Shown here: positions 16,728 through 43,026 of the stretch, one piece after another
How the letters are laid out: each line of letters starts with the position of its first letter
Numbering within the stretch: position 1 is the stretch's first letter
Assembly (NCBI GenBank): GCA_002712005.1
Contig: PASP01000006.1
Span: forward strand, 58,119-111,377
DNA from: Halobacteriovoraceae bacterium
Lineage (GTDB): Bacteria > Bdellovibrionota > Bacteriovoracia > Bacteriovoracales > Bacteriovoracaceae
DNA length: 53,259 bases
Reading direction: 5' to 3'
The notes under the pieces: model-generated
What the model was told of the DNA's origin: nothing
The model's input: the letters and a program-made list of their open reading frames with translations, nothing else
The model's database searches: none
Program-made: the position numbers and the translations under genes

Positions 16728-17768
16728 CTACCCCTTAGGGGCTAGTTTTATAAAATCATGAGAACTATGCCCCACCACTTTTTCAGAACATCTCTTTTGA
16801 CAAAATTTTGGAGCGCTATCCATCTGATCCCAGCTCGCGGCCAATTCCTTCATGGCAGGACCTTCAATGATACTTTTTAAGTCGTGATGATAGAGAGAGA
16901 ATTCCTTTTTCTTTTGAATATTGAAACCATTATCCTTTGAAAAAATAGAGATCCAACAACAAGGTGTGTAGAACCCCTCTGAGGAGATATAGTGCCTTTG
17001 TGTAGTGATGCATTTGGGATGGATTTGAAATTGATTCTCTTTTTCTAAAGTGTGATTTGCCTCATCCTGATTGGATTTAGCCTTTAGGGGGACAGGATTT
17101 CGTATCCCCTCTATTTTCTTCGCTAAAGAGCCTTGAACATATTCTAAATCGGGCATTAAAGGATCATCCTCTTCCCCGTATCCATAGTAAAACAGAGAAC
17201 TCTTCACCAACTTGAACTTATTGATCGCCCATTTTTGTGCCAAGGCCTGAGCTTCTTCAATCTGATGTTGATTATATTTGAAAACAATAAATTTCCAAAA
17301 CGTTCTTACCTTTCCCGCACATGCGGCAACTGCATTTTCAATATCACCCCAAAGAGCATTTTCGCGATAGATATGATTAGTATCCTCAAGGCCATCAATA
17401 GAAAAAGAAATAATATCTTTAGGACCTAAATGGGAGACCACTTCGTCCCACCATTGCCGACTTCTGCCAGAGCCATTTGTTTCAATATAAAGAGAAGTCT
17501 CAAAAGATTTAAAATACTTTATCACTTCAATGAAGTCCCGATGATAAATGGGATCGCCGTAATTCCCACTTAAATCGATGAGTAAGTGCGAATTAAAAAT
17601 GGAAGTTGGTATTCTCTTTTTAATTAAATCCAGCGGTAAATCAACTTGCACAAAAGAGCCCGGATCAGTAACACGAGCACAGCGAGAACACTTAAGTGCA
17701 CACTTTGAAGTTAACTCAAAGTTGAGCATACGAATATCTTCATAATTATAATAATTCACAAGAGTCAT
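16728..17768 (-). CDS. Radical SAM/SPASM-type enzyme, GNYGDP sub-family
   Basis: The 346-residue protein has the radical-SAM cluster motif C-x3-C-x2-C (Cys23, Cys27, Cys30 in TSKCALKCSRC). In place of the usual GGEP strand it has LSGNYGDPIYH, with SIDGLEDTNHIYR later in the barrel. The C-terminus carries a SPASM-like set of cysteines: CITTQRHYISSEGFYTPCCW and FCQKRCSEK, likely to bind auxiliary Fe-S clusters. It would reductively cleave SAM to start radical chemistry on a peptide or sugar-like substrate. It is closely similar in layout to the enzyme at 29439-30521. It lies 27 bases downstream of the HTTM gene on the same strand, so the two are probably co-transcribed. Confidence 0.85.
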   Translation of the reverse strand: MTLVNYYNYEDIRMLNFELTSKCALKCSRCARVTDPGSFVQVDLPLDLIKKRIPTSIFNSHLLIDLSGNYGDPIYHRDFIEVIKYFKSFETSLYIETNGSGRSRQWWDEVVSHLGPKDIISFSIDGLEDTNHIYRENALWGDIENAVAACAGKVRTFWKFIVFKYNQHQIEEAQALAQKWAINKFKLVKSSLFYYGYGEEDDPLMPDLEYVQGSLAKKIEGIRNPVPLKAKSNQDEANHTLEKENQFQIHPKCITTQRHYISSEGFYTPCCWISIFSKDNGFNIQKKKEFSLYHHDLKSIIEGPAMKELAASWDQMDSAPKFCQKRCSEKVVGHSSHDFIKLAPKG

Positions 17769-17795
17769 TATAACTTAAAAAGTAGTATTTTTCTT

Positions 17796-19235
17796 TTAGT
17801 GATTCTCAATTTTCTGGAGAAGCTTACAATCCTCAGAATAGGGATAATTCTCTTTTAGAGCGCCAATATTTGGATAGTAGCATTGACGGATCTCTAAACG
17901 CTTAAAAGGTTTCTTTTTGGCCTTCGTTAACATTTGCGTAACAGCAAAACCTAAAGAAAAGAGTGAGACTTGATCTTTAAAATAAAGCTTTCTAACGGCC
18001 AATTGGGTTCTCACCCGATCCAGGGGAAAGAAGTCTGGATCTTGCACGAGGGTCATCTGTTGCGCATGATCACCAATATAGAAATTAATTTCATTATAAG
18101 GGAAGGTCTCTGGATGGGCATACATAGTGGCCGTCGAAAATGGCCAGAAGTGTTTATAGGTGTAAACAGAAGCTAGACTTCCCCCTAATACAAAAATCAA
18201 TAGAGAAAGGTGAAGAATTTGGGAGGACCTTCTCAGAGGCCATGAGCTTTCTGCCCAAGGATTGGGGGGATCCATCAAAAGTGACTTACCACGAGTAAAG
18301 ATAGGAATAAACGGAACCGACTTTTTTAAATCCCTTAGAAATTGAGTCCACGGAAAAATAAAGAAGTAGATAATTTTAAATGTACTGAAGTGAACCCCCA
18401 TAAGAGAATCAACTCCAAGATGAAACCCAAGTAATAAAAAGGTATAAAAGACTCTATACTTCTTCCAAAAAAGAGGCACAAAAGCACAGAATTGAAGCAC
18501 AAGAGTCATCACCTTTAAGATAAAGTGAAGTTCAAACTCTTGAGAAAGAGCTTTGCCCAATTCAACTTGGTTATAAATAAGCGCCATTGCGAAATCTTGA
18601 GACATAGGCCATCTCAGACCACCTAGACGCATTTTCTGTATGGCCGAACAAAGAAAGTACAGAAATACAAGAGAAGCAATCAAATTGAGTCCCCACACGG
18701 AAGACAAATGGTCCTGTTCTACTGAATGGTCTCTCTCCAAGATAGACCTATTGAGTAAACGATTGAATTTAAACTTTATCCCAAAATGGCGATCAAGACT
18801 AAGTGAATGGGAGGCATGGGTAAAAGGCAGAATACCTAAGACGACACAGACTAGTGTCGTCGAATCATAAACAGTTCCAATATTATTGGGCATACCTATG
18901 ATAAAGAGACCGCTTAAAAAGGCCAAAAAAGACATAAGGGGAAAGAGGAGCCCAAGAGCACTAAAAAGAAGGGAAACTCCAAAGAGAGTGACCATTAAAG
19001 GGCTACATAATTGCATTAGCCCATCATGGGAGATCCCCTGAAAAAAGCTAATAGGTCGCCAAAGAGTTGTGGGAATCTCAGGTAGGTAGAGATAGCGAAT
19101 AAGATAGTCATCACTAAAGTAGAGATAAATCAGAGAGCTATAGAAGAAGATACGAGCAAAGGCGATATCACGGGAATCAGGGCCATCATAAAAGAAGCTT
19201 CTATACTTGTTCTCTATGGCCTTCCCTAGCGTCAT
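17796..19235 (-). CDS. HTTM-domain (gamma-carboxylase-like) membrane protein
   Basis: From ATG 19235 the product is 479 residues. The reading frame is open further upstream but that part overlaps the divergent gene. The N-terminal part begins DIAFARIFFYSSLIYLYF and has multiple membrane helices. FQGISHDGL and GTVYDSTTLVCVVLGILPF match the HTTM fold shared with vitamin-K-dependent gamma-carboxylase. A soluble C-terminal domain of about 110 residues follows the last helix (WPFSTATMYAHPETFPYNEINFYIG onward). HTTM proteins are often encoded next to radical-SAM enzymes, as here. The reaction is not predictable. Confidence 0.75.
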   Translation of the reverse strand: MTLGKAIENKYRSFFYDGPDSRDIAFARIFFYSSLIYLYFSDDYLIRYLYLPEIPTTLWRPISFFQGISHDGLMQLCSPLMVTLFGVSLLFSALGLLFPLMSFLAFLSGLFIIGMPNNIGTVYDSTTLVCVVLGILPFTHASHSLSLDRHFGIKFKFNRLLNRSILERDHSVEQDHLSSVWGLNLIASLVFLYFLCSAIQKMRLGGLRWPMSQDFAMALIYNQVELGKALSQEFELHFILKVMTLVLQFCAFVPLFWKKYRVFYTFLLLGFHLGVDSLMGVHFSTFKIIYFFIFPWTQFLRDLKKSVPFIPIFTRGKSLLMDPPNPWAESSWPLRRSSQILHLSLLIFVLGGSLASVYTYKHFWPFSTATMYAHPETFPYNEINFYIGDHAQQMTLVQDPDFFPLDRVRTQLAVRKLYFKDQVSLFSLGFAVTQMLTKAKKKPFKRLEIRQCYYPNIGALKENYPYSEDCKLLQKIENH

Positions 19236-19289
19236 TAGCCTACCTTGTTTCTTTGGAGGTATTTGTAAATCGCAGGGTTCGTGCCTATA

Positions 19290-20540
19290 ATGAAGCCTAT
19301 GGAAAAAAAATCTAATGACACGTTTTGCATCGTGCCATTTATCCATTTATCAACGGCCCCTCTGGGCACCTTGCGACCTTGTTGTTTCTCCTCTCAGTAT
19401 AAAGTGAGTGATGAAAATAACCAACCCTTCAATCTAGGTCATCATAAACTTGCCCAAATCTGGGAGTCACCTCACTATGAGGATTTAAGAAAAGAGTTTC
19501 TTTCAGGTAAGGCCCCGAAGGCATGTGAATTTTGTTTTAAAGAAGAGTCCTTTGGAAAACGCTCCAAACGCCAGAAAGAAAATGATAAATACTCTCACTA
19601 TATTGACTCTGTTCTTGAGAACAATAAAAAGAGATTGGCTCCGAAGACCCTCGACTTAAGATTAGGCAACCTCTGCAATTTAAAGTGCCTCTCTTGCAAT
19701 CCCCTTTTTAGTTCTCCCATCGAAGCTGAAATGAAGAATCAATGGCCAGATCATTACTTTGAAAAAAGGGACTATGAAAATATCACTTATGACAACGAAT
19801 GGTTCTCTACAAAACAATTCAAAGAAAATATCAACTTATTGCTCGAAGAATTAGAATTTGTCTATGTCTCTGGTGGAGAGCCAACCATTAATCCTTCCCT
19901 CTTACATTTTCTAAAAGAGGCCGTGGATAAAAGAAAGGCCAGTAAGATCGATCTTCGCTTTAATACTAATCTCTCTCACTATAATGATGAATTCTATCAA
20001 ATCTTACCCCATTTTAAGTCCGTAGATATATCCATAAGCTTAGATGCCATCGAAAAAGATCTCTATCTTATTCGCTACCCCCTACAATTCAAAAAAGTAG
20101 AAGAAAACTTAGAGAAACTTCTTCTTCTAAGCGGCGAGATTGAAATTACATTTAACTGCACCACTTCTCTCTTAAACTTATTTTCCTTAAAAGACTTTTA
20201 TCAATGGGTAGATGGTAAGTCACAACAACATAGGCGCTATTTTCATATATCAGTTGATCTCGTTCATGAGCCCACCTATCTCAATCTTATCTACCTCCAT
20301 CCTTCACTAAGAAATCAGGCACGAGCAGAAATACAAGATATCCTCTCTCAAGTACGATTAAAGAGTGCGGCCAAGAAGGATTTAGAATCCCTATTACCTC
20401 TTATAGAGCCTAGCGAAAATAGAGAACTTCCGGAAGATTATATTCATCAATGGGGCAAACGGGCCCAATTCATGAAAACCATGAAGGATTTACGAAATAT
20501 TGACCTAGAACAGTTGGAGGCCATGAAGATATATGAGTGA
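19290..20540 (+). CDS. Twitch-domain radical SAM enzyme (first of three in tandem)
   Basis: The N-terminal region has the Cys-rich twitch arrangement (FCIVPFIHLSTAPLGTLRPCC, then ACEFCFKEE) that would bind an auxiliary Fe-S cluster. The radical-SAM motif LCNLKCLSC and YVSGGEPTINP follow. Length is about 416 residues from ATG 19290. GTG 19281 and ATG 19299 are alternative starts. It overlaps the next gene by 8 bases. Codon use matches the chromosome. The substrate is unknown; related proteins modify peptides or join sugar pathways. Confidence 0.82.
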   Translation: MKPMEKKSNDTFCIVPFIHLSTAPLGTLRPCCFSSQYKVSDENNQPFNLGHHKLAQIWESPHYEDLRKEFLSGKAPKACEFCFKEESFGKRSKRQKENDKYSHYIDSVLENNKKRLAPKTLDLRLGNLCNLKCLSCNPLFSSPIEAEMKNQWPDHYFEKRDYENITYDNEWFSTKQFKENINLLLEELEFVYVSGGEPTINPSLLHFLKEAVDKRKASKIDLRFNTNLSHYNDEFYQILPHFKSVDISISLDAIEKDLYLIRYPLQFKKVEENLEKLLLLSGEIEITFNCTTSLLNLFSLKDFYQWVDGKSQQHRRYFHISVDLVHEPTYLNLIYLHPSLRNQARAEIQDILSQVRLKSAAKKDLESLLPLIEPSENRELPEDYIHQWGKRAQFMKTMKDLRNIDLEQLEAMKIYE

Positions 20541-21804
20541 CTATCCTAGCCCCACATTCTGTGTCATGCCCTTTCTTCATCTCTCCGCAAAGACTTCTGG
20601 TGCTCTAAGATTATGTTGTGAATCGCCAAATTCCGATCTATCCCCACGAACGATGCTAGGAAAAGATAGAGTAGAAGAAATTTGGAATGGTCCCTATTAT
20701 CAGGAAGTAAGAAGAAAGATGCTCAATGGTGAGAAAATAGCCTCTTGCCAAATTTGTTATAAGAAAGAAGAAAAGGGTGTCACCTCCAGAAGAATGGAAT
20801 ATAACGAAGCTTGGAAGAACAAACTTTCCCCCTCCACTTGGGAAGAGATTACGGCGCTCAAGAATCAAGGCATTCAACCCACCCCCCCACAGTATATAGA
20901 TTTACGTCAGGGAAATATTTGTAATCTAAAATGTCGAATGTGTAATAGCATGACCAGTTCAACCTTTGCTAAAGAATGGCAGGAACTTCAGGACTCCCAT
21001 CAAACTGTCGGTTTTGATGAGGAGAATGACAATCTTAAATTCTCAAAAAGAATGCAGCCTTGGTATGAATCGGAACTTTTTTGGAAAGACCTAGAATTCT
21101 TAGCCCCTCATTTGAAAAAGATTTATCTCACCGGAGGAGAGCCCCTCTTAATCAAGAATAATTTAAAGCTACTTAAAAGAATATTGGAGCTTGGCAATAG
21201 AGATATTGAAATTTCAATTAACACCAATTTAACTGTCATAAGTGAAGAATTTCTAGAAGTCTTCTCTCAATTTAAAAAGGCCACTTTCTCCTTGAGTATA
21301 GATGGTGTGGGAAAGACAAATGACTATATTCGATACCCTTCTCAATGGAATGAGCTTGAAAGGAATATTTTCCTTGTAACGAAAACACCTATTCGCTTAG
21401 ATATCACTTATACACTCCAGGCCTATAATTTCTTTGATATTATCTCCTTCATCAAATGGGTCAATCGTCATCTTGTAGAGAGAATCGACTATATTGATTG
21501 GAATATACTCGATACCCCTTCCTTTTTGGCCCACACGATTTGGGACCGACCTAGAAGAATGAGTTACATTCAAGAGCTTGATGCCTATTTAAAGAATACG
21601 GAAAATGAACAGAATCAAAAATTCTATTATAAATTAAGAGAGAAATTTCCCCTCCTTAAGGCCCCTCAGGCCAGTCCCGATGAATGTGAACATTTTGAAC
21701 GTTACACGCAAATCTTAGATCAACACAGAGGCCATAAATTGAAAGAAGAAATCCCATCATCTCCATCATCCCTATCATCTAAGTCAAAAGAGAAAGCAGT
21801 ATGA
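20533..21804 (+). CDS. Twitch-domain radical SAM enzyme (second of three in tandem)
   Basis: This 423-residue protein shows the same order as its neighbours: FCVMPFLHLSAKTSGALRLCC (Cys10, Cys28, Cys29), SCQICYKKE (Cys72, Cys75), then IDLRQGNICNLKCRMC with Cys130, Cys134 and Cys137 as the SAM-cluster ligands, YLTGGEPLLI and SIDGVGKTNDYIRYPSQW. The C-terminus is a Ser/Pro-rich low-complexity tail. The start overlaps the preceding gene by 8 bases and its stop overlaps the next by 4 bases (ATGA). The trio is therefore translationally coupled. It is not a simple recent duplicate: the three proteins differ clearly outside the motifs. Confidence 0.82.
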   Translation: MSDYPSPTFCVMPFLHLSAKTSGALRLCCESPNSDLSPRTMLGKDRVEEIWNGPYYQEVRRKMLNGEKIASCQICYKKEEKGVTSRRMEYNEAWKNKLSPSTWEEITALKNQGIQPTPPQYIDLRQGNICNLKCRMCNSMTSSTFAKEWQELQDSHQTVGFDEENDNLKFSKRMQPWYESELFWKDLEFLAPHLKKIYLTGGEPLLIKNNLKLLKRILELGNRDIEISINTNLTVISEEFLEVFSQFKKATFSLSIDGVGKTNDYIRYPSQWNELERNIFLVTKTPIRLDITYTLQAYNFFDIISFIKWVNRHLVERIDYIDWNILDTPSFLAHTIWDRPRRMSYIQELDAYLKNTENEQNQKFYYKLREKFPLLKAPQASPDECEHFERYTQILDQHRGHKLKEEIPSSPSSLSSKSKEKAV

Positions 21805-23249
21805 GTTGGCTAAGTCGCTTCTTTCCCAAAACTCACCCCAGTCACTCCCAAAGTCCTGCTCAAGCACAGACAAAGGAAGAAACAAATCAGCAATACTTCT
21901 GTCCCCTACCGTGGATTATGATGGCCGTGAGAAATAATGGCGATATGAGAATTTGTTGTCAGGCCAATACAGCTGAATCGAGAGGACTCTATCGCAAAGA
22001 AAATGATGTGCCCTACAATGTTGAAAGAGAGCCCATGGCCCAGGCCAGAAATTCTCAGTTAGCAAAGGAATTAAGAAAGTCGATGCTTGAAGGAGAGGCC
22101 CACGAAGCCTGTATCCGCTGTGATCGCGAAGAGAAAAATGGAATACGCTCGCGTAGAATATTTGAGGTCAATAAGAGTAAGGACTACTTTAATTTTCAAA
22201 TCGCCAAGAAAATGACCAAAGAAGATGGAAGTATCGATCCCAAAGATATCCCCCTGCAATATTTAGATCTCAGGTTTGGAAATAAATGTAATATTCGCTG
22301 CCGTATGTGTGGCCCCACCGATAGCAATGCTTGGTATAACGACTTTGTTCAATTATGGAATACTCCCTATTATGAGGAAGCCATTGGTGTCGTAAAACTA
22401 GTTGAAGATGATAAAGGAAATTGGAGCCCTGAAAATGACCTCTACGATTGGGTTGATAGGGATCATTTCTGGAGTGATGTAGAAGAAAATATGGATCATC
22501 TTACCTATATTCATACTGTTGGTGGAGAGCCCATGCTCATCGAAAGGCAGTTTGACTTACTTGAAAAATGTATAGAAAAGGATATTGCGAAGAATATTGA
22601 ATTAGAATACAACTCAAATGGACCCGTTATCCCTCCGAAAGCTTGGGAATACTGGAAACACTTTAAAACAGTTAAAATTGGATTGAGTTTAGATGGTACG
22701 GGTAAATTAAATGATTATATTCGTTATCCTTCTAAATGGCATACCATCGAAAGAAATATCAAGAAACTAGAGAGCTACGAAGGAAATCTTCATTTATGGT
22801 TTACCTATACCGTTCAAGTTCTCAATGTTTTCTACCTTGATGATATTTTAAAATGGAAGATTTCTAATGAGTTTGAAAACTTTGGAGCTTCCCACAAGCA
22901 ACCCTTTATATCTGCTCACCCGCTTCACAACCCTTTACACTTCAATATTAAAATTCTTCCTCCTCCAGTGAAAAAAATCATTGAGGAGAAACTTCGTAAA
23001 GTTTATGGATGGCTCGAAGATTACTTTGAAGAGAATCAATACTCTGAAAAGAAGCAAGAGATCTATCGAATGTCTGCTAAAAATATTATTGAAGGCTATA
23101 TTAACTATATGAATGAAGAAGATCTTAGTCATGTCTTTCCAAAGTTTTGGAAAGTGACAAAGGATCTCGATAAAATTAGATCCCAATCTTTTGAAGAAAT
23201 ATTCCCTGACTACTATGAAATCTTAAGGCCCTATGTCGAATCTAAGTGA
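21801..23249 (+). CDS. Twitch-domain radical SAM enzyme (third of three in tandem)
   Basis: The 482-residue protein has an N-terminal polar lead of about 30 residues, then YFCPLPWIMMAVRNNGDMRICC (Cys34, Cys52, Cys53), ACIRCDREE (Cys104, Cys107), the radical-SAM motif Cys163/Cys167/Cys170 in NKCNIRCRMC, HTVGGEPMLIE, and SLDGTGKLNDYIRYPSKW. It is closest in layout to the twitch enzyme at 27901-29439. It overlaps the preceding gene by 4 bases and the following PLP-fold gene by 17 bases, so the four genes form one unit. Confidence 0.82.
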   Translation: MSWLSRFFPKTHPSHSQSPAQAQTKEETNQQYFCPLPWIMMAVRNNGDMRICCQANTAESRGLYRKENDVPYNVEREPMAQARNSQLAKELRKSMLEGEAHEACIRCDREEKNGIRSRRIFEVNKSKDYFNFQIAKKMTKEDGSIDPKDIPLQYLDLRFGNKCNIRCRMCGPTDSNAWYNDFVQLWNTPYYEEAIGVVKLVEDDKGNWSPENDLYDWVDRDHFWSDVEENMDHLTYIHTVGGEPMLIERQFDLLEKCIEKDIAKNIELEYNSNGPVIPPKAWEYWKHFKTVKIGLSLDGTGKLNDYIRYPSKWHTIERNIKKLESYEGNLHLWFTYTVQVLNVFYLDDILKWKISNEFENFGASHKQPFISAHPLHNPLHFNIKILPPPVKKIIEEKLRKVYGWLEDYFEENQYSEKKQEIYRMSAKNIIEGYINYMNEEDLSHVFPKFWKVTKDLDKIRSQSFEEIFPDYYEILRPYVESK

Positions 23250-24117
23250 TTATATCAACCATAAGACATTCTCTGTCTACGACTATCAGTTTCTCTTACA
23301 TTTAAAAGAGGCTCCCCTAAGTGAATGGCTCAATCACTCTCCACCCTTTGATTGCCAAGATGAATATTTAGAGAGAATTCACCATCTCATTCACCAGTGT
23401 CGATCCAATCAAGTTGAGGGCCTAGAGCGTTTTTCTCAGCGCCATCTTATCAATGGAACCACTCAAAGCTTTGACGAATGCTATTTAAGAAATTCTTCAA
23501 AACGTTTACGGATTTTCAAAGGCGAATACGCCTATCATAAGAGAGTGAATCCCGACTTCTGTTTCCTAGAAGATGCTCCCCTAGATGAGAATGACTATAT
23601 TATCATCTCTCTTCCTTTTTGCTCTACTGGAGATATCCATCCCCAGATGCATGAGATTATCACTCAAGCTGAGCAAAAGAATATTCCAGTAGAAATCGAT
23701 TGTGCTTACTTTGGAACCTGCCATTCTATAGACTTTGATCTCAGCTCTGCGGCCATCGTGGCCGTCTCCTTTTCTTTATCTAAGGGAATGGGAATGGGCG
23801 ATATTAGATCAGGAATACGCTATAGTGACTTTGATGATGACTTTCCCATAGCCCAACAAAATAATTATCGTCATACCGTAAAATTCGCTGCAAAAATGGG
23901 AATCCACATGATGAAGCGCTTTGATTTTGACTATATTCCAAAACTCTACAGAGAACACCAAGAATCTGTCTGTCATGATTTAGAAATCACTCCAACCAAA
24001 TGCATGCACTTGGCCTTAAGTACAAAAGAGAAACATCCTGAATTTATTGTAGATGATCTCTACTATCGAGTAGGTATCAGAGAAGCAGTCAAAAAGAGAA
24101 AGCAAGGTCGAATTTAG
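23233..24117 (+). CDS. Divergent, short PLP-dependent aminotransferase-fold protein
   Basis: The 294-residue protein is shorter than fold-type I aminotransferases (about 350-420) but keeps their landmarks in order. NGTTQSFDE (74-82) resembles the cofactor phosphate loop. IPVEIDCAYFGTC (151-163) carries the Asp and Tyr that contact pyridoxal, and SFSLSKGMGMGDIRSG (179-194) has Lys184 as predicted Schiff-base residue and Arg192. The small C-terminal domain appears reduced. It is embedded in the radical-SAM operon, overlapping the upstream gene by 17 bases and the downstream GT2 gene by 1 base. It could make an amino sugar or amino-acid building block. Assignment by motif reading only. Confidence 0.6.
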   Translation: MSNLSDYINHKTFSVYDYQFLLHLKEAPLSEWLNHSPPFDCQDEYLERIHHLIHQCRSNQVEGLERFSQRHLINGTTQSFDECYLRNSSKRLRIFKGEYAYHKRVNPDFCFLEDAPLDENDYIIISLPFCSTGDIHPQMHEIITQAEQKNIPVEIDCAYFGTCHSIDFDLSSAAIVAVSFSLSKGMGMGDIRSGIRYSDFDDDFPIAQQNNYRHTVKFAAKMGIHMMKRFDFDYIPKLYREHQESVCHDLEITPTKCMHLALSTKEKHPEFIVDDLYYRVGIREAVKKRKQGRI

Positions 24118-25166
24118 TGAGTCGATCCCTCTCTTTCATTACTCCCCATTTTAATCAATTTCGCCATCTCAAAGAGCTAGGAGAACTTTTTCTACACTGG
24201 GACCAGAACCGATCAGTATCTTCTGATATTTCAAGTCAGCTGGAATGGGAATGGATCATTATCGATGACTTCAGCGAAAATCAAAATGAACTCCAATCAT
24301 TAGTTAAATCTTGGAATCATCCTCAAATCCAGCTTGTGCTCTTATCTCAAAATAGTGGGCCCTCTCATGCAAGAAATAAAGGCATCACTTGTGCTCGAGG
24401 AAGAGAACTTATATTTGTAGATGCCGATATAGAAGTCAATCTGGATAAGGTCATTGAAAAAGAAATTCAATCGCCCTTCTGTGCAGGACTTCATTCTCCC
24501 TCGCAGGGAAGCTTCTTTACTCGCTATAAGAATGATTATATGAACGCCATCTTTCATCCCTTCACAGATGAAGGTGGCGCCTTAGAGTGCTCCTTTATTT
24601 ATGGAGCTTTATGTGGATGGCCAAAAGATCTGGCCTATAAATGGCCTCAAGACTTAAGAATTGGTGAGGACACATTCTTAGCTGGCGAGATCTTAAGAAG
24701 TGGGCAAACCATCCAATTTAGAGACGACCTCTTACTTACCCACAAGAAGTCTTATCGCTTTCTCGGACTCCTTAGAAATGACTTCAGAGTTCCTTTCTAC
24801 TTTGCCAAGGCCTATAAATTCCGATTAAAAAATAAAGGGCAAATGAAGGCCTCCTTCTCCCATACGAATAAATATCAGCTCTACTATATTTTATTCAGTG
24901 GTGTTTTTCTTATTGGACTCATCTATTCTTTAGTTTCTCTATTAATCAGAAGTCATATTCAAGAGCAATACTTGAGCTCACTTTTGGCGGCAAGTATTCT
25001 TCTATGGTTTAAGTTTAATATTCCCCTCTTTAAGAGATTATTGATCAATCAAAGACCTTTAGGGGCTTTGGGACGTGTAGGCCTTACATTAATTGACCAA
25101 TGGATCATGGGCTTTTGTATTCTATTTGGACTCACCTATTTCTTTCTTTTTGAAAAAGCAAAATAA
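24117..25166 (+). CDS. GT2-family glycosyltransferase with C-terminal membrane helices
   Basis: This 349-residue GT-A fold protein starts at GTG 24117, overlapping the previous stop by one base. Motifs are WIIIDDFSENQ (nucleotide-binding Asp pair), NSGPSHARNKGITCARG and LIFVDADIE (DxD metal site). The C-terminal about 100 residues hold two to three membrane segments (YILFSGVFLIGLIYSLVSLL and MGFCILFGLTYFFLF), anchoring the enzyme at the inner membrane, where it would add a sugar to a lipid-linked or membrane acceptor. Its last 45 bases overlap the convergent gene. Confidence 0.8.
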   Translation: MSRSLSFITPHFNQFRHLKELGELFLHWDQNRSVSSDISSQLEWEWIIIDDFSENQNELQSLVKSWNHPQIQLVLLSQNSGPSHARNKGITCARGRELIFVDADIEVNLDKVIEKEIQSPFCAGLHSPSQGSFFTRYKNDYMNAIFHPFTDEGGALECSFIYGALCGWPKDLAYKWPQDLRIGEDTFLAGEILRSGQTIQFRDDLLLTHKKSYRFLGLLRNDFRVPFYFAKAYKFRLKNKGQMKASFSHTNKYQLYYILFSGVFLIGLIYSLVSLLIRSHIQEQYLSSLLAASILLWFKFNIPLFKRLLINQRPLGALGRVGLTLIDQWIMGFCILFGLTYFFLFEKAK

Positions 25167-30715: not shown

Positions 30716-31189
30716 ATGGATAGAAGAAAATTGATGAAATCGGCCCTTGTCCTATTACCAGTGTTGAAAGCTCCTTTGCTCTTCGCAAAGAAGGCCAATC
30801 CAAACTATCTCAACCCCGGTAGTTCAAGTGGTGCAAGTAAGGCCCATAATCTATCCCAAGAAATTCTCTCTCCCTCGCAAAATTCTCAACAATATTTTAG
30901 AGTCCACATTGAAGTGAATCGCTTTGCCAATAACGGACAAGATAGAGAAAAAGTTAAATCTCATTATATGAAAGGCAGTATAAAAGAGCTCAATGATAAA
31001 TATCTTCGTCAAAACCAACTGGCCTTCACAACCGTTGAGAAGTCTTCGAAGAAGATCAATTGGGAATATGCTTTTCACTCTGAAGCTGATTACAAAGCGT
31101 GGAAAAGAGAGCTTGAAAGTCATTATATTGATTATTCGAAAGCTCATGCCTTGGGACTTCAAGAAAAGATTAGCTTTTCCCAATGTTAA
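30716..31189 (+). CDS. Small exported protein with Tat-like signal and C-terminal cysteine
   Basis: The 157-residue product begins MDRRKLMKSALVLLPVL, a twin-arginine-like signal (RRxLMK) followed by a short hydrophobic region and a possible cleavage near LFA-KK. The mature part is Ser/Asn/Lys-rich. It has no cysteine until the very last residue (...FSQC). It is transcribed divergently from the radical-SAM operon and followed 15 bases later by the hydroxylase-like gene. The function is unknown. It is the only small, exported, non-enzyme protein inside the island, which makes it a candidate substrate, but there is no direct evidence of modification. Confidence 0.6.
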   Translation: MDRRKLMKSALVLLPVLKAPLLFAKKANPNYLNPGSSSGASKAHNLSQEILSPSQNSQQYFRVHIEVNRFANNGQDREKVKSHYMKGSIKELNDKYLRQNQLAFTTVEKSSKKINWEYAFHSEADYKAWKRELESHYIDYSKAHALGLQEKISFSQC

Positions 31190-35134: not shown

Positions 35135-36571
35135 ATGAACAAAAGAATTCTTATTATCGGGGCAGGTCCCGCTGGTCTTGCAGCAGCTTATAAGTTGTGT
35201 AAAAGAGGAATGGAAGTTCATATCTATGAGTCCCACCCACAGCAAGTAGGCGGACTCTCAAAAACAATTGCTCATAAAGAATTTAGCTTTGATATTGGTG
35301 GCCATCGCTTTTATACAAAATCTGAAGAAGTTAGAGAATTTTGGCATAAAATTATGGGAGATCAGTTTTTAAAGCGAAAGAGACTCTCTCGTATTTTCTT
35401 TGAAAATAAGTTCTTTAATTACCCCCTCGAGCTAAGTGATGTCCTTCTTAAAATTAGTCCCTTGCGATCCCTAGGTTTTCTCCTTTCCTATCTCAAGGCC
35501 CAAATTGAAAATAAGCTCCTATCCCATAGAGAAAGTCATTCTTTAGAAGATTGGTTGACCCATCATTTTGGCAAGAGCCTCTATAAAACCTTTTTCAAAA
35601 GTTATAGTGAGAAAGTATGGGGACGTCCCTGTAGTCAGATATCTTCTGACTGGGCAGCACAACGAATTAATGATTTCAATGTTAAAGAAATCGTCTTTCA
35701 ACTGGTTAAAAAGGGATTATTCTTAAATAGACCCCTCTCTCCAAAGAAACTCAAAACACTTATTGGTGAATTTGATTATCCGGAAAAAGGTCCCGGCATG
35801 CTATGGGATAAAGTGGCCAAGGAAATAGAGAGTATGGGGGGGAAGATATATCTGCACCATAGAGTTAAAGAAATCAGTAAGCCCAAAGATAATCAATGGC
35901 AGCTCTCGTTTGAAAACGGTGAAGAATCACTCATTGGAGATCACCTCATATCCACTTATCCTATGAAAGAACTCTTAGGTCATATGAAATCACTTATTGA
36001 TCGGCCAGAATAGAATAAGTGGCTAAGTGAAATACAATATCGAGACTTCTTAACGATTGTTCTCATGTTTAAAAAGAAAGTGACCTTTCCCGATAATTGG
36101 ATTTATATCCACGACAAGAATGTTAATGTTGCCCGTATTCAAAATTATAAGAATTGGTCACCTTTTATGGTTCCCTCGGAAGAGTATACGAGTTACGGAT
36201 TAGAGTATTTTTGTCAAAAAGGAGATGGGCTATGGGAGAAGAGTGATGATGAACTCTTTTCGATGGCAATTGATGAAATTAAGAAAATAGATCTCCCTTT
36301 TTCAGAAATAGAATTGGAATATAAGGTGCTTCGTATTCCAAAGGCCTATCCTGTCTATGATCATAATCATCGCAATAGACTGGAAGAAATCAAAAATTAT
36401 TTGGAGAAATTTCCAACTCTCCATTTGGCCGGAAGAAATGGAATGCATCGCTATAATAATCAAGATCATTCAATCAAAACCGGATTTCTCTGTGCAGAAA
36501 ATATTGCAGCCGATAAGAAGCTTTTTGATCCTTGGCAGGTCAATCAAGATGCTATTTATTTAGAGAAGTAG
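35135..36571 (+). pseudogene. FAD/NAD(P)-dependent oxidoreductase interrupted by an in-frame TAG
   Basis: The N-terminal part (residues 1-292) has the Rossmann dinucleotide motif ILIIGAGPAGLAAAYKL and GGHRFYTKSEEV, as in the protoporphyrinogen-oxidase/UDP-galactopyranose-mutase-like group. It stops at TAG 36011-36013. The same frame then continues without a shift (NKWLSEIQYRDFLTIVLMFKKK) into the conserved C-terminal part: FPDNWIYIHD, SYGLEYFCQKGDGLW, IPKAYPVYD and AGRNGMHRYNNQDHS. The whole is one 477-residue protein with a single nonsense codon. The TAG may be a mutation, a sequencing error or a read-through site. Its last 16 bases overlap the convergent membrane gene. Confidence 0.8.
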
Positions 36572-37995
36572 AGATTTCTAGATTCATAGAGAGATCTTGT
36601 CCCTTCTTTGATCAAATCAGAACAGAAGTTCATATTATCTTTAAAAATAAGAAAGTAAGGCTCCCTAACTTTACCTAGAACTTCCCTATTCAAAGAAAAA
36701 TCCCATCCCCCTAAACAATGCAATCTCCCTCCACTTTCTAGCAAAACTGACTCATAGAAGCGAGGACAGTTACCACAGGCGACAACCATCTTATCCTCTT
36801 TTGAAGAAGAGGAAAGCTCTTGAGTAAGCTTGACCATCACTTCAGGAATATTGGGATAATTATCAATATAGAAATAAATCTTAAGGCAATTAGGAAGAAA
36901 AAGGAGGATCATACATATGAAAAAGAGAGTGGGAGAAAGTAAGAGAGAAGAACCCTTATCCCTTCCCGAAACTTTTTTTCTCCAAATCACAGGAAGAAAA
37001 GCGATAAATATAAAGGAGAAAGCAGCTCCCCCAATGAAGAATCGATATTCAAAACTCGGCAATCCCAAGAAATTGAGAATTAATGAAATCACAAGGAGAA
37101 GACATAAGGGAGAAAAAAAGAGTAAAAGAACTCTCTTATTAAATTTAAGCATTCTTAAGAATACGAAAATCAAAAGAAAGAGAAAAATAAAATTATCGTT
37201 ATATAAGTACAGAAAGAGGCCGTAAAACTTAGTTAAGCTCACTGCCCGTCTCTGCTCTAAAACAAGAGGATCACTATTTATCTGGTAAAAGATCAATGAG
37301 GTTATCGCGAGGGCAAAGAGTGCACCTACAAAAGAGATGAATGCCTTCGATACACCTTTTTTCAAATACCAAAAAAGTATAAATAAGTAGAGAGCAAGAA
37401 CGAGACCAAAGAGATGACTTAATCCTAGAAAGAACAGAGAAAGAATGAAAAGACAAAAGAAACGCCTCTCTTCTGTGTTTTCCCATTTCAACCCCAAATA
37501 AAAGCTTAAAAGAGAGAAGAAAAGCATCAAACTATAAGGCCTAGCATTAAATCCATATTCAATAGAAAAGAAGCTAAGAGAAAAAATCAAAGTTCCAAGC
37601 CAACGCTGGTTTTGAGACACTGGATAAGAGGGAACTAAATTTCTAATTCCCATAATTCTATAAAAGAGGAAAAAACCAGGAATAACAAGAAAGAAAGAAA
37701 TAAAGCGAAAAGCGAATAGATTCTCAGGAAAATACTTAACCAGAGGATAAGATAGAATGTAGCCTAGAGGAAATTGGAAATCATGGGTGTAATTATACTC
37801 AATCACTCCCAAGAGAGAGTGAACCTGAGAAAGAAGATCATACTGAATATTCTCATCAAAGCTAAGTGGACTCTCTAATAAAAGATATAATCGAAAGAGA
37901 ACACCAAGAACGAGGAGAATAGGAATATAAAATGAAAAGGAGGCCGCTCTCTTTTTCCCTAATTCTCTTTTATGTGAAGATGAAGAATCATTCAT
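36556..37995 (-). CDS. GT-C-type polytopic glycosyltransferase-like membrane protein
   Basis: From ATG 37995 the protein is 479 residues. GAGGAAG lies just upstream, and the start overlaps the previous stop by 4 bases. It has about ten hydrophobic helices. The first periplasmic loop has LLESPLSFDENIQYDLL, with an acidic DE pair like the catalytic residue of GT39/GT83/ArnT enzymes, followed by HDFQFPLGYILSYPLV. Such enzymes use polyprenyl-linked sugars on the periplasmic face. The soluble C-terminus includes GNCPRFYESVLL. Convergent with the interrupted oxidoreductase. Confidence 0.65.
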   Translation of the reverse strand: MNDSSSSHKRELGKKRAASFSFYIPILLVLGVLFRLYLLLESPLSFDENIQYDLLSQVHSLLGVIEYNYTHDFQFPLGYILSYPLVKYFPENLFAFRFISFFLVIPGFFLFYRIMGIRNLVPSYPVSQNQRWLGTLIFSLSFFSIEYGFNARPYSLMLFFSLLSFYLGLKWENTEERRFFCLFILSLFFLGLSHLFGLVLALYLFILFWYLKKGVSKAFISFVGALFALAITSLIFYQINSDPLVLEQRRAVSLTKFYGLFLYLYNDNFIFLFLLIFVFLRMLKFNKRVLLLFFSPLCLLLVISLILNFLGLPSFEYRFFIGGAAFSFIFIAFLPVIWRKKVSGRDKGSSLLLSPTLFFICMILLFLPNCLKIYFYIDNYPNIPEVMVKLTQELSSSSKEDKMVVACGNCPRFYESVLLESGGRLHCLGGWDFSLNREVLGKVREPYFLIFKDNMNFCSDLIKEGTRSLYESRNLYFSK

Positions 37996-39089
37996 TTCTT
38001 CTTCCTCCCCAATAGGAAATTCCCCATAGGTCTTAAATAGCCCCGCCAATGATATTCACTCATATAATATATTTTACAGAAAATACGATGAATTATTTTA
38101 TAATAGATAAAAATACCACTCATATATAAGAAGTGCCGGACTTTATGGTAGATCTTTTTAACTAAAGGCGGAGCAAAAATAAGCTCCATCTTCATAAGCC
38201 CCCTTTTCCATAAGGGAATTTTGTGTTTCTGGGTCTTAGAATTTAAGCCCAATTGAAAGAAGTAGTCATAAAGTTTAAAGTAGAAGAGATTCTCTTCTCT
38301 CATTTGCCTATCACTTGATATCTTTTTCTTAGAAATTGAAGATTTTAAAGTCAAATTATTTTGTAAATTATGGGCCTTCCCCCCACCTTGACGATAGGCC
38401 TTTTTAATAAATTCAAAGAAAGAAAGATTAAAATGATGATAGACCTTAAATTCCGAGCGATAAATGAGGATCTTTCCATGTTGATAGAGTTGAACATTAA
38501 GAGAAGTTTCAGTACCTCCGTAACTCATTTGGGGGTCAAAATTAAATCCTTCGTCAAACACTTCTCGACGATATAAGGTATTCCCCCCAATTAAATAACA
38601 TGTTTCTCCCCTCTCATTTTCTACAGCATTTTCAAGCCACTTGCTAGCAAGGTAGGCATATACATGATTTCTTCTCTTCTTACTTTGCTCATTGCTCTCC
38701 GTATAACCACCACCAAGAGCAGAAATATCTGCATTTTCTTTCATAAATTGCAAAAGAGATTCTAAATAATTGGATTTAATCAGGGCACAATCATCGTCTA
38801 TAAAGTAAAGGTAATTTGCCCTTGCTTTCATTGCTCCAAAATTTCGAGCAATATTTGCACTTTCCTTATTCGTTGCAAATATTCTTAAATCATAGAAATA
38901 CTCTCTCATCTCTCTCAAAAGATTTTCAAGAAAAGCTAAATCACGAGAAAAATTGGCGACTAAGATAATATCTAATCCGCGCGAAAGATTATCTTCTTTT
39001 AAAGACGTGAAAAGCTTTAAGAGCGAGTCTCGATTCTTTTTGGGCAGATGAGTGGGGATAACGACAGAGATGTGAGGGGTCACTACCAT
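37992..39089 (-). CDS. GT2-family glycosyltransferase
   Basis: From ATG 39089 (GGAG five bases upstream) the protein is about 365 residues. Motifs are HISVVIPTHLPKKNRDSLL, IILVANFSRD, ATNKESANIARNFGAMKA and YLYFIDDDCALI, with GGNTLYRREVFDEGFNFDP and YGGTETSLNVQLYQHG on the acceptor side. The C-terminus holds a hydrophobic basic segment likely to attach to the membrane. It overlaps the upstream GT2 gene by 7 bases and the downstream GT-C-type gene by 4 bases. The three minus genes form one operon that presumably builds or exports one glycan. Confidence 0.8.
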   Translation of the reverse strand: MVVTPHISVVIPTHLPKKNRDSLLKLFTSLKEDNLSRGLDIILVANFSRDLAFLENLLREMREYFYDLRIFATNKESANIARNFGAMKARANYLYFIDDDCALIKSNYLESLLQFMKENADISALGGGYTESNEQSKKRRNHVYAYLASKWLENAVENERGETCYLIGGNTLYRREVFDEGFNFDPQMSYGGTETSLNVQLYQHGKILIYRSEFKVYHHFNLSFFEFIKKAYRQGGGKAHNLQNNLTLKSSISKKKISSDRQMREENLFYFKLYDYFFQLGLNSKTQKHKIPLWKRGLMKMELIFAPPLVKKIYHKVRHFLYMSGIFIYYKIIHRIFCKIYYMSEYHWRGYLRPMGNFLLGRKKK

Positions 39090-40258
39090 AGAAACTCCTG
39101 ATGCACTTGTCCCCTGTCTTCCAACTCTCTGTGATGAAGAACACTCTTCCATTCAATACTTCGATCATCGAAGTAGAGCATTCCTGTACGAGAAGTCGCA
39201 CTTGAAAAATTCTTCCTCTCATTATCCAAGATGGGAGAAGGATAGCGACAAAAGATAAGTCCCCACACTTTACCTAAGTGACTTACTACAAATAAGATAA
39301 GGAGAAATAAATGTATTTGATTAGGGTATTTAAATAATTGAATGAGTGAAGAAAAGAGATCTCTAAGAGCAAGAGTCATTTTTACTTTGAGACCCTTACC
39401 ATTCGAGGAACTTTGAGGCTCATTAAATAGACCCTCCCATTTATGAAAATAGATTATTTTGGTTTTACCTTCCTCAAAGGAGCGCTTTAAATAATCCCAA
39501 AAATTCTCTCCATTGAAATAAACATAGGCGCGAGATTTTTTAGTAGCTCCTAGGTCTCCTCCGGCCAAGAAGAACCTCTTGGAAAGATCAATATCTTCAT
39601 GTCGTGGTAAATAGGGATCAAAGCCTTTGATTTCATAAAATCGCTTTCGATCGTAAATACAAGCCGCAGAGTTGATCATAGGTGATTCAAAACAAGAGCG
39701 ACCTAAGAGATGAAAGGTTCCTCGCGTGGCCTTTTTAATGGCGTAAGTTCGAAGTTTTAATAAGAAGGGCTCTTTATGATCAGGACTAAAGTCTGCTGTG
39801 GGAATAATGGGTCCACAACCCCCTGTTGCGCCTTTTTCTTCGAGAAAGGAGATCAATCGCTCTGCCCAATTCTCTTCAATCCATACATCGGCATCTATGA
39901 AGGCCAACCACTTTCCACAGGCCTTAAGAGCCCCGTGATTTCGAGCATAGGAGCGTCCCCTTTGGTCTTCGTTTAAAAGGTATATCTGGGTTGAATGATG
40001 AATTCTTTGAATCTCTGAAACGACTTGGGCCGTCTCATCAGTACAGGCGTTATCGACGACAATGATTTCATAAGGAAGTGATGAGTCTCCGTTTTTGTGG
40101 GACTCTATAATGGACTCTAGACACTTTCTGATAGTGGCAGCTGCATTATAACACGGAACAACATAACTTATCAGCCTAGCTTGCACATCGTTCGTGTCCT
40201 GTGTCTCATTTGCATTTTTGGCAAAGTCCCAGCGTTGGCCGGAGTCCTCAAATACCAT
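39083..40258 (-). CDS. GT2-family glycosyltransferase with a C-terminal membrane helix
   Basis: The 391-residue protein has LISYVVPCYNAAATIRKCLE, IIVVDNACTDETA, GRSYARNHGALKACG, WLAFIDADVWIEENWAERLI, and PYLPRHEDIDLSKRFFLAGG, the classical GT2 set in order. A membrane segment (HLFLLILFVVSHLGKVWGLIF) lies near residue 330. AAGGA precedes the ATG by about six bases. It is the first gene of the minus-strand glycosyltransferase operon and diverges from the twitch radical-SAM gene across a 92-bp gap. Confidence 0.8.
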   Translation of the reverse strand: MVFEDSGQRWDFAKNANETQDTNDVQARLISYVVPCYNAAATIRKCLESIIESHKNGDSSLPYEIIVVDNACTDETAQVVSEIQRIHHSTQIYLLNEDQRGRSYARNHGALKACGKWLAFIDADVWIEENWAERLISFLEEKGATGGCGPIIPTADFSPDHKEPFLLKLRTYAIKKATRGTFHLLGRSCFESPMINSAACIYDRKRFYEIKGFDPYLPRHEDIDLSKRFFLAGGDLGATKKSRAYVYFNGENFWDYLKRSFEEGKTKIIYFHKWEGLFNEPQSSSNGKGLKVKMTLALRDLFSSLIQLFKYPNQIHLFLLILFVVSHLGKVWGLIFCRYPSPILDNERKNFSSATSRTGMLYFDDRSIEWKSVLHHRELEDRGQVHQEFLW

Positions 40259-40286
40259 ATTATCCTTTTCTCAAGCTCGCATCCCT

Positions 40287-40350: not shown

Positions 40351-41715
40351 ATGTACGGTGATCGTAAAAGTATAGCTAACGCTAAAGAAAAGCTCAACGC
40401 TGTATCGCCAAGTTTCTGCGTGGCCAAGTGGCTAAATGCCACTATCCACCTCCACTTGGGAAGAACCCATTCGTGTCATCTCCCCCCCCATCATCCAATA
40501 AGTCCTAAAGATATCAAGAAAGACCCTTCAGGCATTCATAATACTGCTGAAAAGAAATCTCAACGAAAGCTCATGTTAAAAGGTAAAAGGCCCGCGGGTT
40601 GTCAGTCCTGTTGGAATATAGAAGATCTCCCCGGAGAGCACTATAGCGACCGCCATTTTATGGCCCATTACTTTTGGGCAGAACCTCATTTTGATGAAGT
40701 CATTGAACATGGCCATAAGAAGTCAATTAACCCTCGTTACTTAGAAGTAAGCTTTAGTAGTAGCTGTAATTTTAAATGCAGTTACTGCTCTCCCACTTAC
40801 TCTTCAAGTTGGGAAAAGGAAGTAAAGAAGTTTGGAGCCTATAAATTAGACTCCACTTCTCTTTATCTGGAACCCAATATTTTGAAGCTTCGTAAAGAAA
40901 TGCCATTACCTGAAGAAGATAATCCCTATATAGAAGCCTTTTGGAAATGGTGGCCAAATCTTTCCCCTGATTTAAAAGTCTTTCGCATTACCGGAGGAGA
41001 GCCCCTCCTTAGTAAGGATACTTTTAAAATCTTTGACGAAATCAAGAAAAAGCCATTACCCCAATTAGAGTTTTCTATAAATACCAATCTAGGCATACCA
41101 CAGCCTACTTTCAATAAGTATATAGAACACATCAAAGAACTCTTGGAAAAGAAATATATTGCTCGATATATGATGTATACGAGCGTTGATAGCTATGGCC
41201 CACAAGCGGAATATATCCGCAACGGTTTAGACTTTAATCTTTTTAAAACAAGAGTTGAAAGTTACCTTCAATCTCATCCCAAGGCCCATCTCTCCTTTAT
41301 GTGTACATTCAACGCCCTCAGTATCTTTAATTTTAAAGAATTTCTAAAATGGATATTGGAATTGAGAAAGCTCTATGGAAAAGGTCGAAATCTATTCATT
41401 GATACTCCCTATCTTCGTTACCCTCAATTTATGACAGTCCAAATACTTCCACAAAAGTATCATCACTACTTAGAAAATATCATTCGCTTTATGAGAGAAT
41501 ATGAAGGAAAAGAAGCTGGCTTTCGCTCCGGAGAGGTCATTAAAATGGAGCGTATTTTTAGTTGGATGAAAGAAGCAAAACCAGAAGAACAAATTAAACA
41601 TCAAAAAGACTTTAAACGCTTCTTTCTTGAGCACGATAAGAGACGAGACACAAACTTTTTAGAAACCTTTCCTGAACTGGAAGAATTTTGGAACTCCATT
41701 GAAACAGATTACTAA
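40351..41715 (+). CDS. Twitch-domain radical SAM enzyme (divergent member)
   Basis: The 454-residue protein has FCVAKWLNATIHLHLGRTHSCH and GCQSCWNIE as reduced twitch-like cysteines. The usual CC pair is CH here. The SAM motif is SSSCNFKCSYCSPTYSSSW (Cys139, Cys143, Cys146), followed by RITGGEPLLSKDTF. A DSYGPQAEYIRNG segment replaces the DG-x-x-x-x-N found in siblings. It has more histidines near the N-terminus than the others, so the auxiliary cluster may be liganded differently. It overlaps the following gene by 17 bases. AAGGT lies about seven bases before the ATG. Confidence 0.8.
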   Translation: MYGDRKSIANAKEKLNAVSPSFCVAKWLNATIHLHLGRTHSCHLPPHHPISPKDIKKDPSGIHNTAEKKSQRKLMLKGKRPAGCQSCWNIEDLPGEHYSDRHFMAHYFWAEPHFDEVIEHGHKKSINPRYLEVSFSSSCNFKCSYCSPTYSSSWEKEVKKFGAYKLDSTSLYLEPNILKLRKEMPLPEEDNPYIEAFWKWWPNLSPDLKVFRITGGEPLLSKDTFKIFDEIKKKPLPQLEFSINTNLGIPQPTFNKYIEHIKELLEKKYIARYMMYTSVDSYGPQAEYIRNGLDFNLFKTRVESYLQSHPKAHLSFMCTFNALSIFNFKEFLKWILELRKLYGKGRNLFIDTPYLRYPQFMTVQILPQKYHHYLENIIRFMREYEGKEAGFRSGEVIKMERIFSWMKEAKPEEQIKHQKDFKRFFLEHDKRRDTNFLETFPELEEFWNSIETDY

Positions 41716-42217
41716 AACTCTCAAACATTTGAAAATGAGATTGAGTTTAGCTCCTGTGCTTTTTTCCCTAATTATATTTGGGCTATATGCAACTCAAATC
41801 ATCTTTAAAAGAGAAGATTGGCCCTTAACTCACCTCTCTCTTTTTTCCGCTGGTCGATATGATACAACCCATACAATAAAAATATCGATCGAAAATATCA
41901 TTCAAGAAAATGGCCAAAAAACGAGGGTTGAACCTCTACTGTGGGGAAGCGACAAATTCTTTATCATCGAATCATTAGAAAAAATAATCCTAGATCGCCA
42001 TCCCAATATTCACGATGGCCCTTCCTTCGCCAAAGACCCTGACACCATCCATCTTATCGATCAATTTGTTGAAGAAAATATTCTTCCCCTCTATAGCTGG
42101 CATCAGAAAGAGAGAAGAGGTGAACTTATCATCCGCCTTCGCTATTGGGATCAATTAAACTTTCAAAATTACCACACTCCAGAAAAAGAAGAAATTTACT
42201 GGAGAAAGTCTTTATGA
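41699..42217 (+). CDS. Membrane-anchored protein resembling the C-terminal domain of the island's HTTM protein
   Basis: The 172-residue product has one N-terminal membrane helix (APVLFSLIIFGLYATQIIF) and then a soluble domain beginning WPLTHLSLFSAGRYDTTHTIKISIE. The corresponding place in the HTTM gene at 17796-19235 reads WPFSTATMYAHPETFPYNEINFYI after its last helix. This suggests the soluble domain is encoded separately here. The start is uncertain: TTG at 41699 overlaps the radical-SAM gene, and ATG 41735 has no ribosome site. It overlaps the next gene by 4 bases (ATGA). Confidence 0.55.
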   Translation: MKQITKTLKHLKMRLSLAPVLFSLIIFGLYATQIIFKREDWPLTHLSLFSAGRYDTTHTIKISIENIIQENGQKTRVEPLLWGSDKFFIIESLEKIILDRHPNIHDGPSFAKDPDTIHLIDQFVEENILPLYSWHQKERRGELIIRLRYWDQLNFQNYHTPEKEEIYWRKSL

Positions 42218-43026
42218 ATCTTAGAAAGCTACAACTCCAAATTTATCGCGCCCTCATTTTTGGTCCCGCCACATGGTATATCTTCTTTAAAGGACACTAT
42301 TATCCCGATAATTTCTATGAAACTTGGCAACCTATTAGTTTCTACCACTTACTTTCAGGGCCTTGGAGTCAAAACTTCTTAGATGGCCTTCGTTATCTTT
42401 GGTTTATCTTTTGCCAATTTACTTTTATTTCTCTATATCCAAGATTTTACAAAGAACGAAATTATCGCCTCTTGAGTGTCCCGGCCACCCTCTTGGCGAT
42501 TCTCTTTTTAGGCCATGATTATAATTTTGGAACCATCTATCATGGAACTCATCTTTATGTAGCCGTTTGCTTACTTCTAAGCTTGGCCCCTAAGAATCGA
42601 AAAAATAGGGATTCCCCTTACGATTGGCACATACCTTTAATCAAGAGTTTTATTTCTTTCATGCTCTTTAGTGCAGGCCTACAAAAAATATTCAAAGGTG
42701 GAGTAGATTGGTTCACGACAGATGCCCTCTTTATAAAAATGGTACTCCTTCCTGCCCATCCCCCCCTAGCTTCACTCCTTCTTGAAGCTCCGCTGTGGGT
42801 TCATCAGTTATTAGGATTTATCATTCTGATAGTAGTTCAGCTCAGTGCACCCCTCGCTCTCATAAGTCCCGTTACAGGCCTCTTCTATTTCATACTTTGG
42901 AGTCTCTTTCACATTGGAGCGAGTCTAATCTTTAGTGTGGGAACAAGTTTCTATTCTCAAATCTTTTGTTATGCCATTTTCTTAAGCCCTAGCTTAATCA
43001 AGCATAATCCCTTAAAACGAAATTAA
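42214..43026 (+). CDS. HTTM-like polytopic membrane protein
   Basis: From ATG 42214 (overlapping the previous stop by 4 bases, GGAGA upstream) the protein is about 270 residues with six or more hydrophobic helices. PISFYHLLSGPW, GHDYNFGTIYHGTHLYVAVCLLLSLAP and FMLFSAGLQKIFKGGVDWF parallel the HTTM protein at 17796-19235 (PISFFQGI; GTVYDSTTLVCVVLGILPF; LCSAIQKMRLGGLRW). It therefore looks like the membrane half of a split HTTM system whose soluble half is the preceding gene. The upstream radical-SAM gene completes the same gene pairing as at 16.7-19.2 kb. Confidence 0.65.
   Translation: MNLRKLQLQIYRALIFGPATWYIFFKGHYYPDNFYETWQPISFYHLLSGPWSQNFLDGLRYLWFIFCQFTFISLYPRFYKERNYRLLSVPATLLAILFLGHDYNFGTIYHGTHLYVAVCLLLSLAPKNRKNRDSPYDWHIPLIKSFISFMLFSAGLQKIFKGGVDWFTTDALFIKMVLLPAHPPLASLLLEAPLWVHQLLGFIILIVVQLSAPLALISPVTGLFYFILWSLFHIGASLIFSVGTSFYSQIFCYAIFLSPSLIKHNPLKRN

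Follow-up and report, generated by a model that had tools for sequence, protein, structure and literature searches.

An island of eight radical-SAM genes in a Halobacteriovoraceae bacterium contains a three-gene core that recurs in T4-like phages and may tailor a surface molecule

The window, which is the whole stretch of 53,259 nucleotides analysed here, covers positions 58119-111377 of contig C9 in the 3.96-Mb assembly of a Halobacteriovoraceae bacterium (genome G000), whose closest named relatives are metagenome-assembled genomes (MAGs) of Bacteriovoracaceae/Bdellovibrionales. It contains an island in which eight intact radical S-adenosylmethionine (rSAM) genes lie within about 25-26 kb (16728-41715), as established by translation of the open reading frames (ORFs) and by Pfam and NCBIfam scans. 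Three of them, R7, T6 and R5, form a core that is also found in relatives of this bacterium as well as in T4-like phages. The original prediction, made from the letters of the window, had described eight genes with a CxxxCxxC motif in a compact island, and this was confirmed. The motif and the auxiliary-cluster cysteines are kept in all eight proteins, five of which have their extra cysteines towards the N-terminus and three towards the C-terminus, and all eight match PF04055, seven over the Pfam cut-off and R1 under it.

Five of the enzymes belong to NF033640 ('N_Twi_rSAM'), with scores of 311-437 bits against a cut-off of 170. They are T2 (19281-20540, plus strand; 311 bits, likelier start at 19290), T3 (20533-21804, plus strand; 350 bits), T4 (21801-23249, plus strand; 372 bits), which is paired with a gene for a pyridoxal-phosphate (PLP) enzyme, T6 (27901-29439, minus strand; 437 bits), which is core gene 2 and the most conserved, and T8 (40351-41715, plus strand; 345 bits), which lies beside HTTM genes. 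The N-terminal cysteine pattern of the N-twitch proteins, C..CC..CxxC, is present in four of the five, and T8 is without the second C of the CC pair. R1, R5 and R7 reach just 30-37 bits on the same profile, which makes them distant matches outside the family, and apart from PF04055 they matched no curated family at cut-off in the Pfam and NCBIfam scans. R1 (16728-17768, minus strand) has an intact CxxxCxxC motif and scores 24 bits on PF04055; clustering of neighbourhoods puts it with R7. R5, core gene 3 (26754-27917, minus strand), has conserved C-terminal cysteines (alignment A2), and R7, core gene 1 (29439-30521, minus strand), has SPASM-like C-terminal cysteines in an alignment (A3) that spans 78-44% identity. 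The whole genome has 25 matches to NF033640, corresponding to 0.17 expected per 26 kb, and the probability of finding at least eight rSAM genes in 26 kb is about 1e-11 on that basis, or about 1e-8 even if 60 rSAM genes are assumed genome-wide. Further N-twitch matches of this genome are located on contigs C17, C11, C7, C3 and C16.

Scanning of GTDB species genomes with the T6 alignment gave 27 loci, mostly in Bdellovibrionota, and 291 genomes of this phylum were surveyed for the trio, with R7 counted at E<1e-150. T6 is present in 15 of these genomes, R5 in 17 and R7 in 16. All 15 genomes with T6 also have R5 (hypergeometric probability 3e-23) and 14 of them have R7 (7e-21), the exception being G197. 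The three genes are contiguous in 12 of the 15, in an order and orientation that differ between genomes. Neighbourhood clustering ranks R7, T6/N-twitch and R5 at the top, followed by a GT-A-like transferase, the PLP enzyme, GT2 enzymes and a methyltransferase-like protein (MT). At some loci the trio stands alone among housekeeping genes, and in L122 and L124 its surroundings are unrelated genes, the GT-A gene being the most that is found alongside. For five other island genes (TAT, HYD, HTTM1, GTC and FAD, described below) no homologue was found in the 20 kb or so around the core genes of 15 other genomes, from which we conclude that the island consists of a conserved core and a lineage-specific shell. 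No close relative of T6, R5, R7 or the PLP enzyme was found among solved structures.

T6 also matches more than 100 stretches of IMG/VR contigs, the best with 60-71% identity. The viral nature of these records was checked by hallmark genes: the capsid gene gp23 was found in 8 of 25 records tested and the neck gene gp14 in 4 of 22, of which two were additional to the gp23 set. This gives ten contigs with one or both genes, for which a T4-like viral origin is supported. T6, R7 and MT occur in all ten, R5 in nine and the PLP gene in five. The one hallmark contig without R5, G053, is shorter, and its scores for capsid, T6 and other matches are nearly equal to those of the R5-bearing G054. Over the wider set, R5 is present once in 18 of the 19 viral contigs with T6, and NF033640-type N-twitch matches number 7-17 on each of the 25 viral records. 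In all four contigs with gp14 the T6-bearing rSAM cluster lies about 2-30 kb from this gene; in G059 the cluster is followed by neck, sheath-stabiliser and terminase genes, and phage G043 (342 kb) has another rSAM cluster straight after a virion structural gene of 2692 aa and its three small neighbours. This position is consistent with the host recognition cluster of pelagimyophages, which is located in the same zone near gp14 and is reported to contain radical-SAM cassettes and glycosyltransferases (PMC7029224). The island of the window is not situated between phage structural modules near gp14, its neighbours being ordinary chromosomal genes. Taken together, the co-occurrence data give good support to the trio being a co-inherited module, present in bacteria and in T4-like phages.

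Among the cultured phages in INPHARED, T6 had no close match and R5 and GT-A had none; the T6 similarity in the Vibrio phages K566/K567 is just 21%. These cultured jumbo phages (L112) have three annotated rSAM genes within four genes, with PagP several kb off. Some database labels were not accepted. The IMG/VR record L032 resembled a virus with counterparts of eight genes of the island. In the T6 and R7 trees it groups with Bacteriovoracaceae, so it is probably bacterial and misclassified and was left out of the viral evidence. Hits labelled as MAGs from outside Bdellovibrionota (L127, L131, L132 and L135) fall in the viral clade of the T6 tree and are probably phage contigs that were binned wrongly.

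The viral sequences of the T6 tree group in a single clade, whose sister is a Bdellovibrionales sequence, that of contig L136 from G197, and the R7 tree has a single split between viral and bacterial sequences; the outgroups are distant in both trees. The L136 contig also shares five collinear genes with phage G043, encoding a tail-region protein (31% identity), a small protein (31%), two glycosyltransferase-like proteins (35%) and a GT-A protein (47%), and in L136 the N-twitch rSAM genes come after this block. The tail-region gene and the glycosyltransferase block occupy L136:14320-18731, shortly after a pheT-like gene.

A functional tie between T4 and the PLP enzyme is suggested by their genes. 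The PLP gene of the window (23233-24117, plus strand) overlaps T4 by 17 bases and encodes an aminotransferase-like protein with an SLSKG motif (alignment A6), which matches class-I aminotransferases weakly (AvtA-like, E=7.6e-4). A phage ORF of 820 aa (L184:12894-15356) is a fusion of a T4-like N-twitch rSAM (residues 3-482) with a PLP enzyme (residues 504-820), and an N-twitch rSAM is the direct neighbour of 11 of 18 distinct PLP homologues. The fusion and the adjacency tie both proteins to one step or pathway. The ORF next to the fusion, L184:8669-12907 (1412 aa), contains two N-twitch rSAM units.

The remainder of the island is rich in glycosyltransferases. The four GT2 enzymes of the original prediction are beyond doubt by their scores, all over the PF00535 cut-off: a membrane-anchored one with two hydrophobic segments (24117-25166, plus strand; 48 bits), one that follows R5 without a gap on the same strand (25122-26753, minus strand; 64 bits) and has homologues near the trio in five other genomes, one with homologues, some of them weak, near seven other trio loci (37992-39152, minus strand; 63 bits) and one at 39083-40258 (minus strand; 98 bits). 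The GT-A-like, GT-C-like, PLP, PP-loop and methyltransferase-like genes were likewise found to be present, the PLP, PP-loop and GT-C assignments being based on weak to moderate profile matches. The GT-A-fold glycosyltransferase-like protein with a DxD motif (33299-34246, plus strand; alignment A4, AlphaFold pLDDT 85) has homologues near the trio in eight other genomes, and the class-I methyltransferase-like protein MT (34243-35058, plus strand; pLDDT 87, many matches to class-I methyltransferase folds) in seven. GTC (36556-38049, minus strand) would be a GT-C-like membrane glycosyltransferase, with nine hydrophobic segments and a weak TMEM260-like match (E=0.0037). The PP-loop ATPase of the QueC/Asn-synthase-like type (32100-33209, minus strand) scores 27 bits on PF06508 against a cut-off of 22; it shares only the PP-loop domain with QueC (TIGR00364, 23 bits against an equivalog cut-off of 150), and a 72% identical homologue lies beside R7 in genome G002.

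For the other shell genes the original prediction stands in part. The hydroxylase-like protein HYD (31205-32113, plus strand) is a possible Asp/Asn-hydroxylase-like 2-oxoglutarate (2OG) oxygenase, with a match to PF05118 under cut-off (E=9.5e-4). The FAD oxidoreductase is indeed a gene of the PRK07208 type (35135-36571, plus strand), but its reading frame is broken by a TAG stop codon at 36011-36013, which is due either to gene decay or to a sequence error. Of the two HTTM loci, HTTM2 (42145-43026, plus strand) is just under the PF05090 cut-off (25.5 bits against 27.7, E=1.2e-5), and HTTM1 (17796-19346, minus strand; start probably further in) is an HTTM-like membrane protein by BLASTP similarity to HTTM2 (E=2e-5), with no Pfam match that would place it in PF05090. 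TAT (30716-31189, plus strand) is a small protein with a Tat-like signal (RRKLMKS). Between T8 and HTTM2 lies a gene for a small membrane-anchored protein with one hydrophobic segment (41699-42217, plus strand), a homologue of which is found beside HTTM in G002. The combination of an HTTM-type gene, a small gene and an adjacent or nearby N-twitch rSAM recurs in several genomes (L114:403-2823, L119:1-2473 and window positions 40351-43026) and is possibly a second sub-module.

The viral trio has its own set of neighbours, with genes for QueC-like PP-loop, 2OG-oxygenase, cytidylyltransferase, cupin and NodU-type carbamoyltransferase proteins, a set that would suit sugar tailoring; genes for IscU and A-type carrier proteins are also present. 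GT-A homologues are present in 13 of the 19 viral contigs, partly as arrays of 920-1522 aa. Such GT-A-like repeat arrays are encoded at L180:2126-4903 (925 aa), L181:2785-7353 (1522 aa) and L182:2798-5560 (920 aa), and their length varies among close phages. A NodU/Nol-type carbamoyltransferase (L180:4941-6467) directly adjoins one array, and phage IscU and an A-type Fe-S carrier (L182:7999-8706) lie in the rSAM region about 2-3 kb past another.

In view of the above, we consider that the island could be a surface-tailoring locus built on the mobile core R7-T6-R5, the product being a surface glycoconjugate used in recognition; we assign this explanation a probability of roughly 45%. The core is often joined by the GT-A-like transferase, the methyltransferase-like protein and the pair of an N-twitch rSAM and a PLP enzyme. 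The rSAM enzymes may act successively on one acceptor and introduce different C-H changes, for example oxidation, epimerisation or cross-linking, and the PLP, PP-loop and methyltransferase proteins could add amino, amide and methyl groups. The acceptor would be a glycoconjugate, either a sugar or a glycosylated surface or fibre protein, exposed on the outer cell surface in the bacteria and located on the host-recognition apparatus or on the surface of the infected host in the case of the phages. The four GT2, the GT-C and the HTTM genes would then belong to the lineage-specific shell and serve to build or export the carrier. A glycan is favoured by the tailoring genes around the phage trio and by the glycosyltransferase-rich shell in bacteria, a fibre protein by the virion-gene neighbourhood and the collinear block in G197. 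The idea of the original prediction that the genes might serve one pathway may be retained for T6, R5 and R7, which are strongly co-conserved and often have GT-A, MT and T4 homologues beside them, but the whole set of 26 genes is not conserved; comparison of gene order gave the same division, with a trio contiguous in most genomes that have T6 and five shell genes without homologues near other cores. Its proposal of several successive C-H activations is plausible, given the three-rSAM core and the phage rSAM-PLP fusion, and among product classes a decorated surface molecule is still the best candidate.

Several observations weigh against a surface glycoconjugate as the product of a mobile core. 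In some bacteria (L122) no recognisable glycosyltransferase lies directly beside the trio, so the core may be able to do without glycan chemistry. The model of the GT-A-like protein gave weak Foldseek matches to GT-A and nucleotidyltransferase structures, with TM scores of about 0.3-0.4. The GC content of the island equals that of its flanks and thus gives no indication that the island was acquired recently. The tail-region protein was found in one of the 291 genomes (G197) and not in the other 290, and was for that reason rejected as a general bacterial substrate.

The main alternative is that the enzymes modify a protein directly, in a post-translational or RiPP-like (ribosomally synthesised and post-translationally modified peptide) manner, the targets being chiefly fibre-type recognition proteins, such as phage tail fibres and bacterial fibre adhesins, with the glycosyltransferases acting on the same protein. 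Peptides are frequent substrates of SPASM/twitch rSAM enzymes, and the phage rSAM cluster directly after virion structural genes, as well as the G197 block with tail-region gene, small gene, two glycosyltransferase-like genes and GT-A gene (31-47% identity) ahead of N-twitch rSAM genes, would agree with such a target. Prey recognition by Bdellovibrio employs tail-fibre-like MAT adhesins (PMC10769870), which also fits. The rarity of the tail-region gene in the phylum counts against it, as does the island of the window, in which no fibre gene was identified. Furthermore, no conserved family of small ORFs that could encode a precursor emerged from 274 small ORFs at 16 trio-type loci, where one weak pair (5.5e-4) was found. 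Direct protein modification is tenable but doubtful. A broader proposal, that Bdellovibrionota predators and T4-like phages share and exchange one system of three rSAM enzymes and transferases for modifying recognition or entry fibres or surface molecules, we regard as unlikely.

A soluble product, such as an antibiotic or a signalling compound, could be considered because many tailoring enzymes, including PLP and PP-loop enzymes, occur together. Such a soluble secondary metabolite is quite improbable: a scaffold-forming enzyme (nonribosomal peptide synthetase or polyketide synthase) or a precursor peptide was not seen in the island, membrane glycosyltransferases and HTTM genes are present, and the trio is conserved in phages, for which a diffusible product makes less sense. 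The QueC-like PP-loop genes near the viral trio and the phage location recall the hypermodification of DNA or tRNA in phages with rSAM- and QueC-type enzymes. However, to our knowledge no base-modification pathway uses as many rSAM enzymes as the 7-17 N-twitch matches per phage contig; the clusters lie near neck genes, where these were found, rather than with replication genes, and the bacterial copies are frequently beside membrane glycosyltransferases. Nucleic-acid modification is the least probable option. Only slightly better is the idea that unrelated genes have piled up by chance in a variable region without sharing a pathway. The lack of co-conservation of TAT, HYD, HTTM1, GTC and FAD, the interruption of the FAD gene and the differences in orientation among genomes would agree with it, but co-inheritance of the core and the rSAM-PLP fusion contradict it as far as the core is concerned; for parts of the shell it may hold.

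Returning to a surface glycoconjugate as the favoured product, the island can be compared with known systems. The original prediction knew of no characterised pathway with this combination of genes, and profile searches put no enzyme in a known pathway. O-antigen and capsule loci of the WbpG/PseA type bring together GT2, PP-loop amidotransferase and aminotransferase-type functions, as does the island, but we know of none built around several rSAM enzymes, and none of the island genes was assigned to a nucleotide-sugar pathway. Proteusin and SPASM RiPP pathways resemble the island in combining several rSAM enzymes with methyltransferase and hydroxylase-like genes; they differ in that the island is dominated by glycosyltransferases and that a conserved precursor peptide was not found in the 16 loci. 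NF033640, the twitch domain-containing radical SAM proteins, includes five of the eight island enzymes and not R1, R5 and R7, and its family name assigns no reaction. This family and the phage rSAM cassettes were already known. The cassettes of T4-like marine phages are similar in that several rSAM genes occur with glycosyltransferases (PMC7029224; PMC5332604); for the T4-like genome TARA_ERS488813_N000010, 12 rSAM genes and an A-type Fe-S carrier are reported (PMC5332604), and one phage contig studied here has IscU and an A-type carrier in its rSAM region. A fixed trio or a link to Bdellovibrionota is not described in the available portions of these two papers, and the window is part of a bacterial chromosome. 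In the open-licence literature no paper was found that describes three rSAM genes as a fixed trio, their joint inheritance in Bdellovibrionota or a connection between phages and predators. T6, the central member, shares 50-70% identity between marine phages and bacteria of a phylum rich in predators, and the trio would represent a new radical-tailoring pathway; on the phage contigs, N-twitch rSAMs have branched into many paralogues each. The nearly constant association of the three genes, in large marine phages as well as in related bacteria, points to an undescribed enzyme set, probably decorating a surface molecule in cell recognition. Such a pathway would make the rSAM cassettes of T4-like phages easier to understand, and it offers a specific connection between phage and predator recognition that can be tested.

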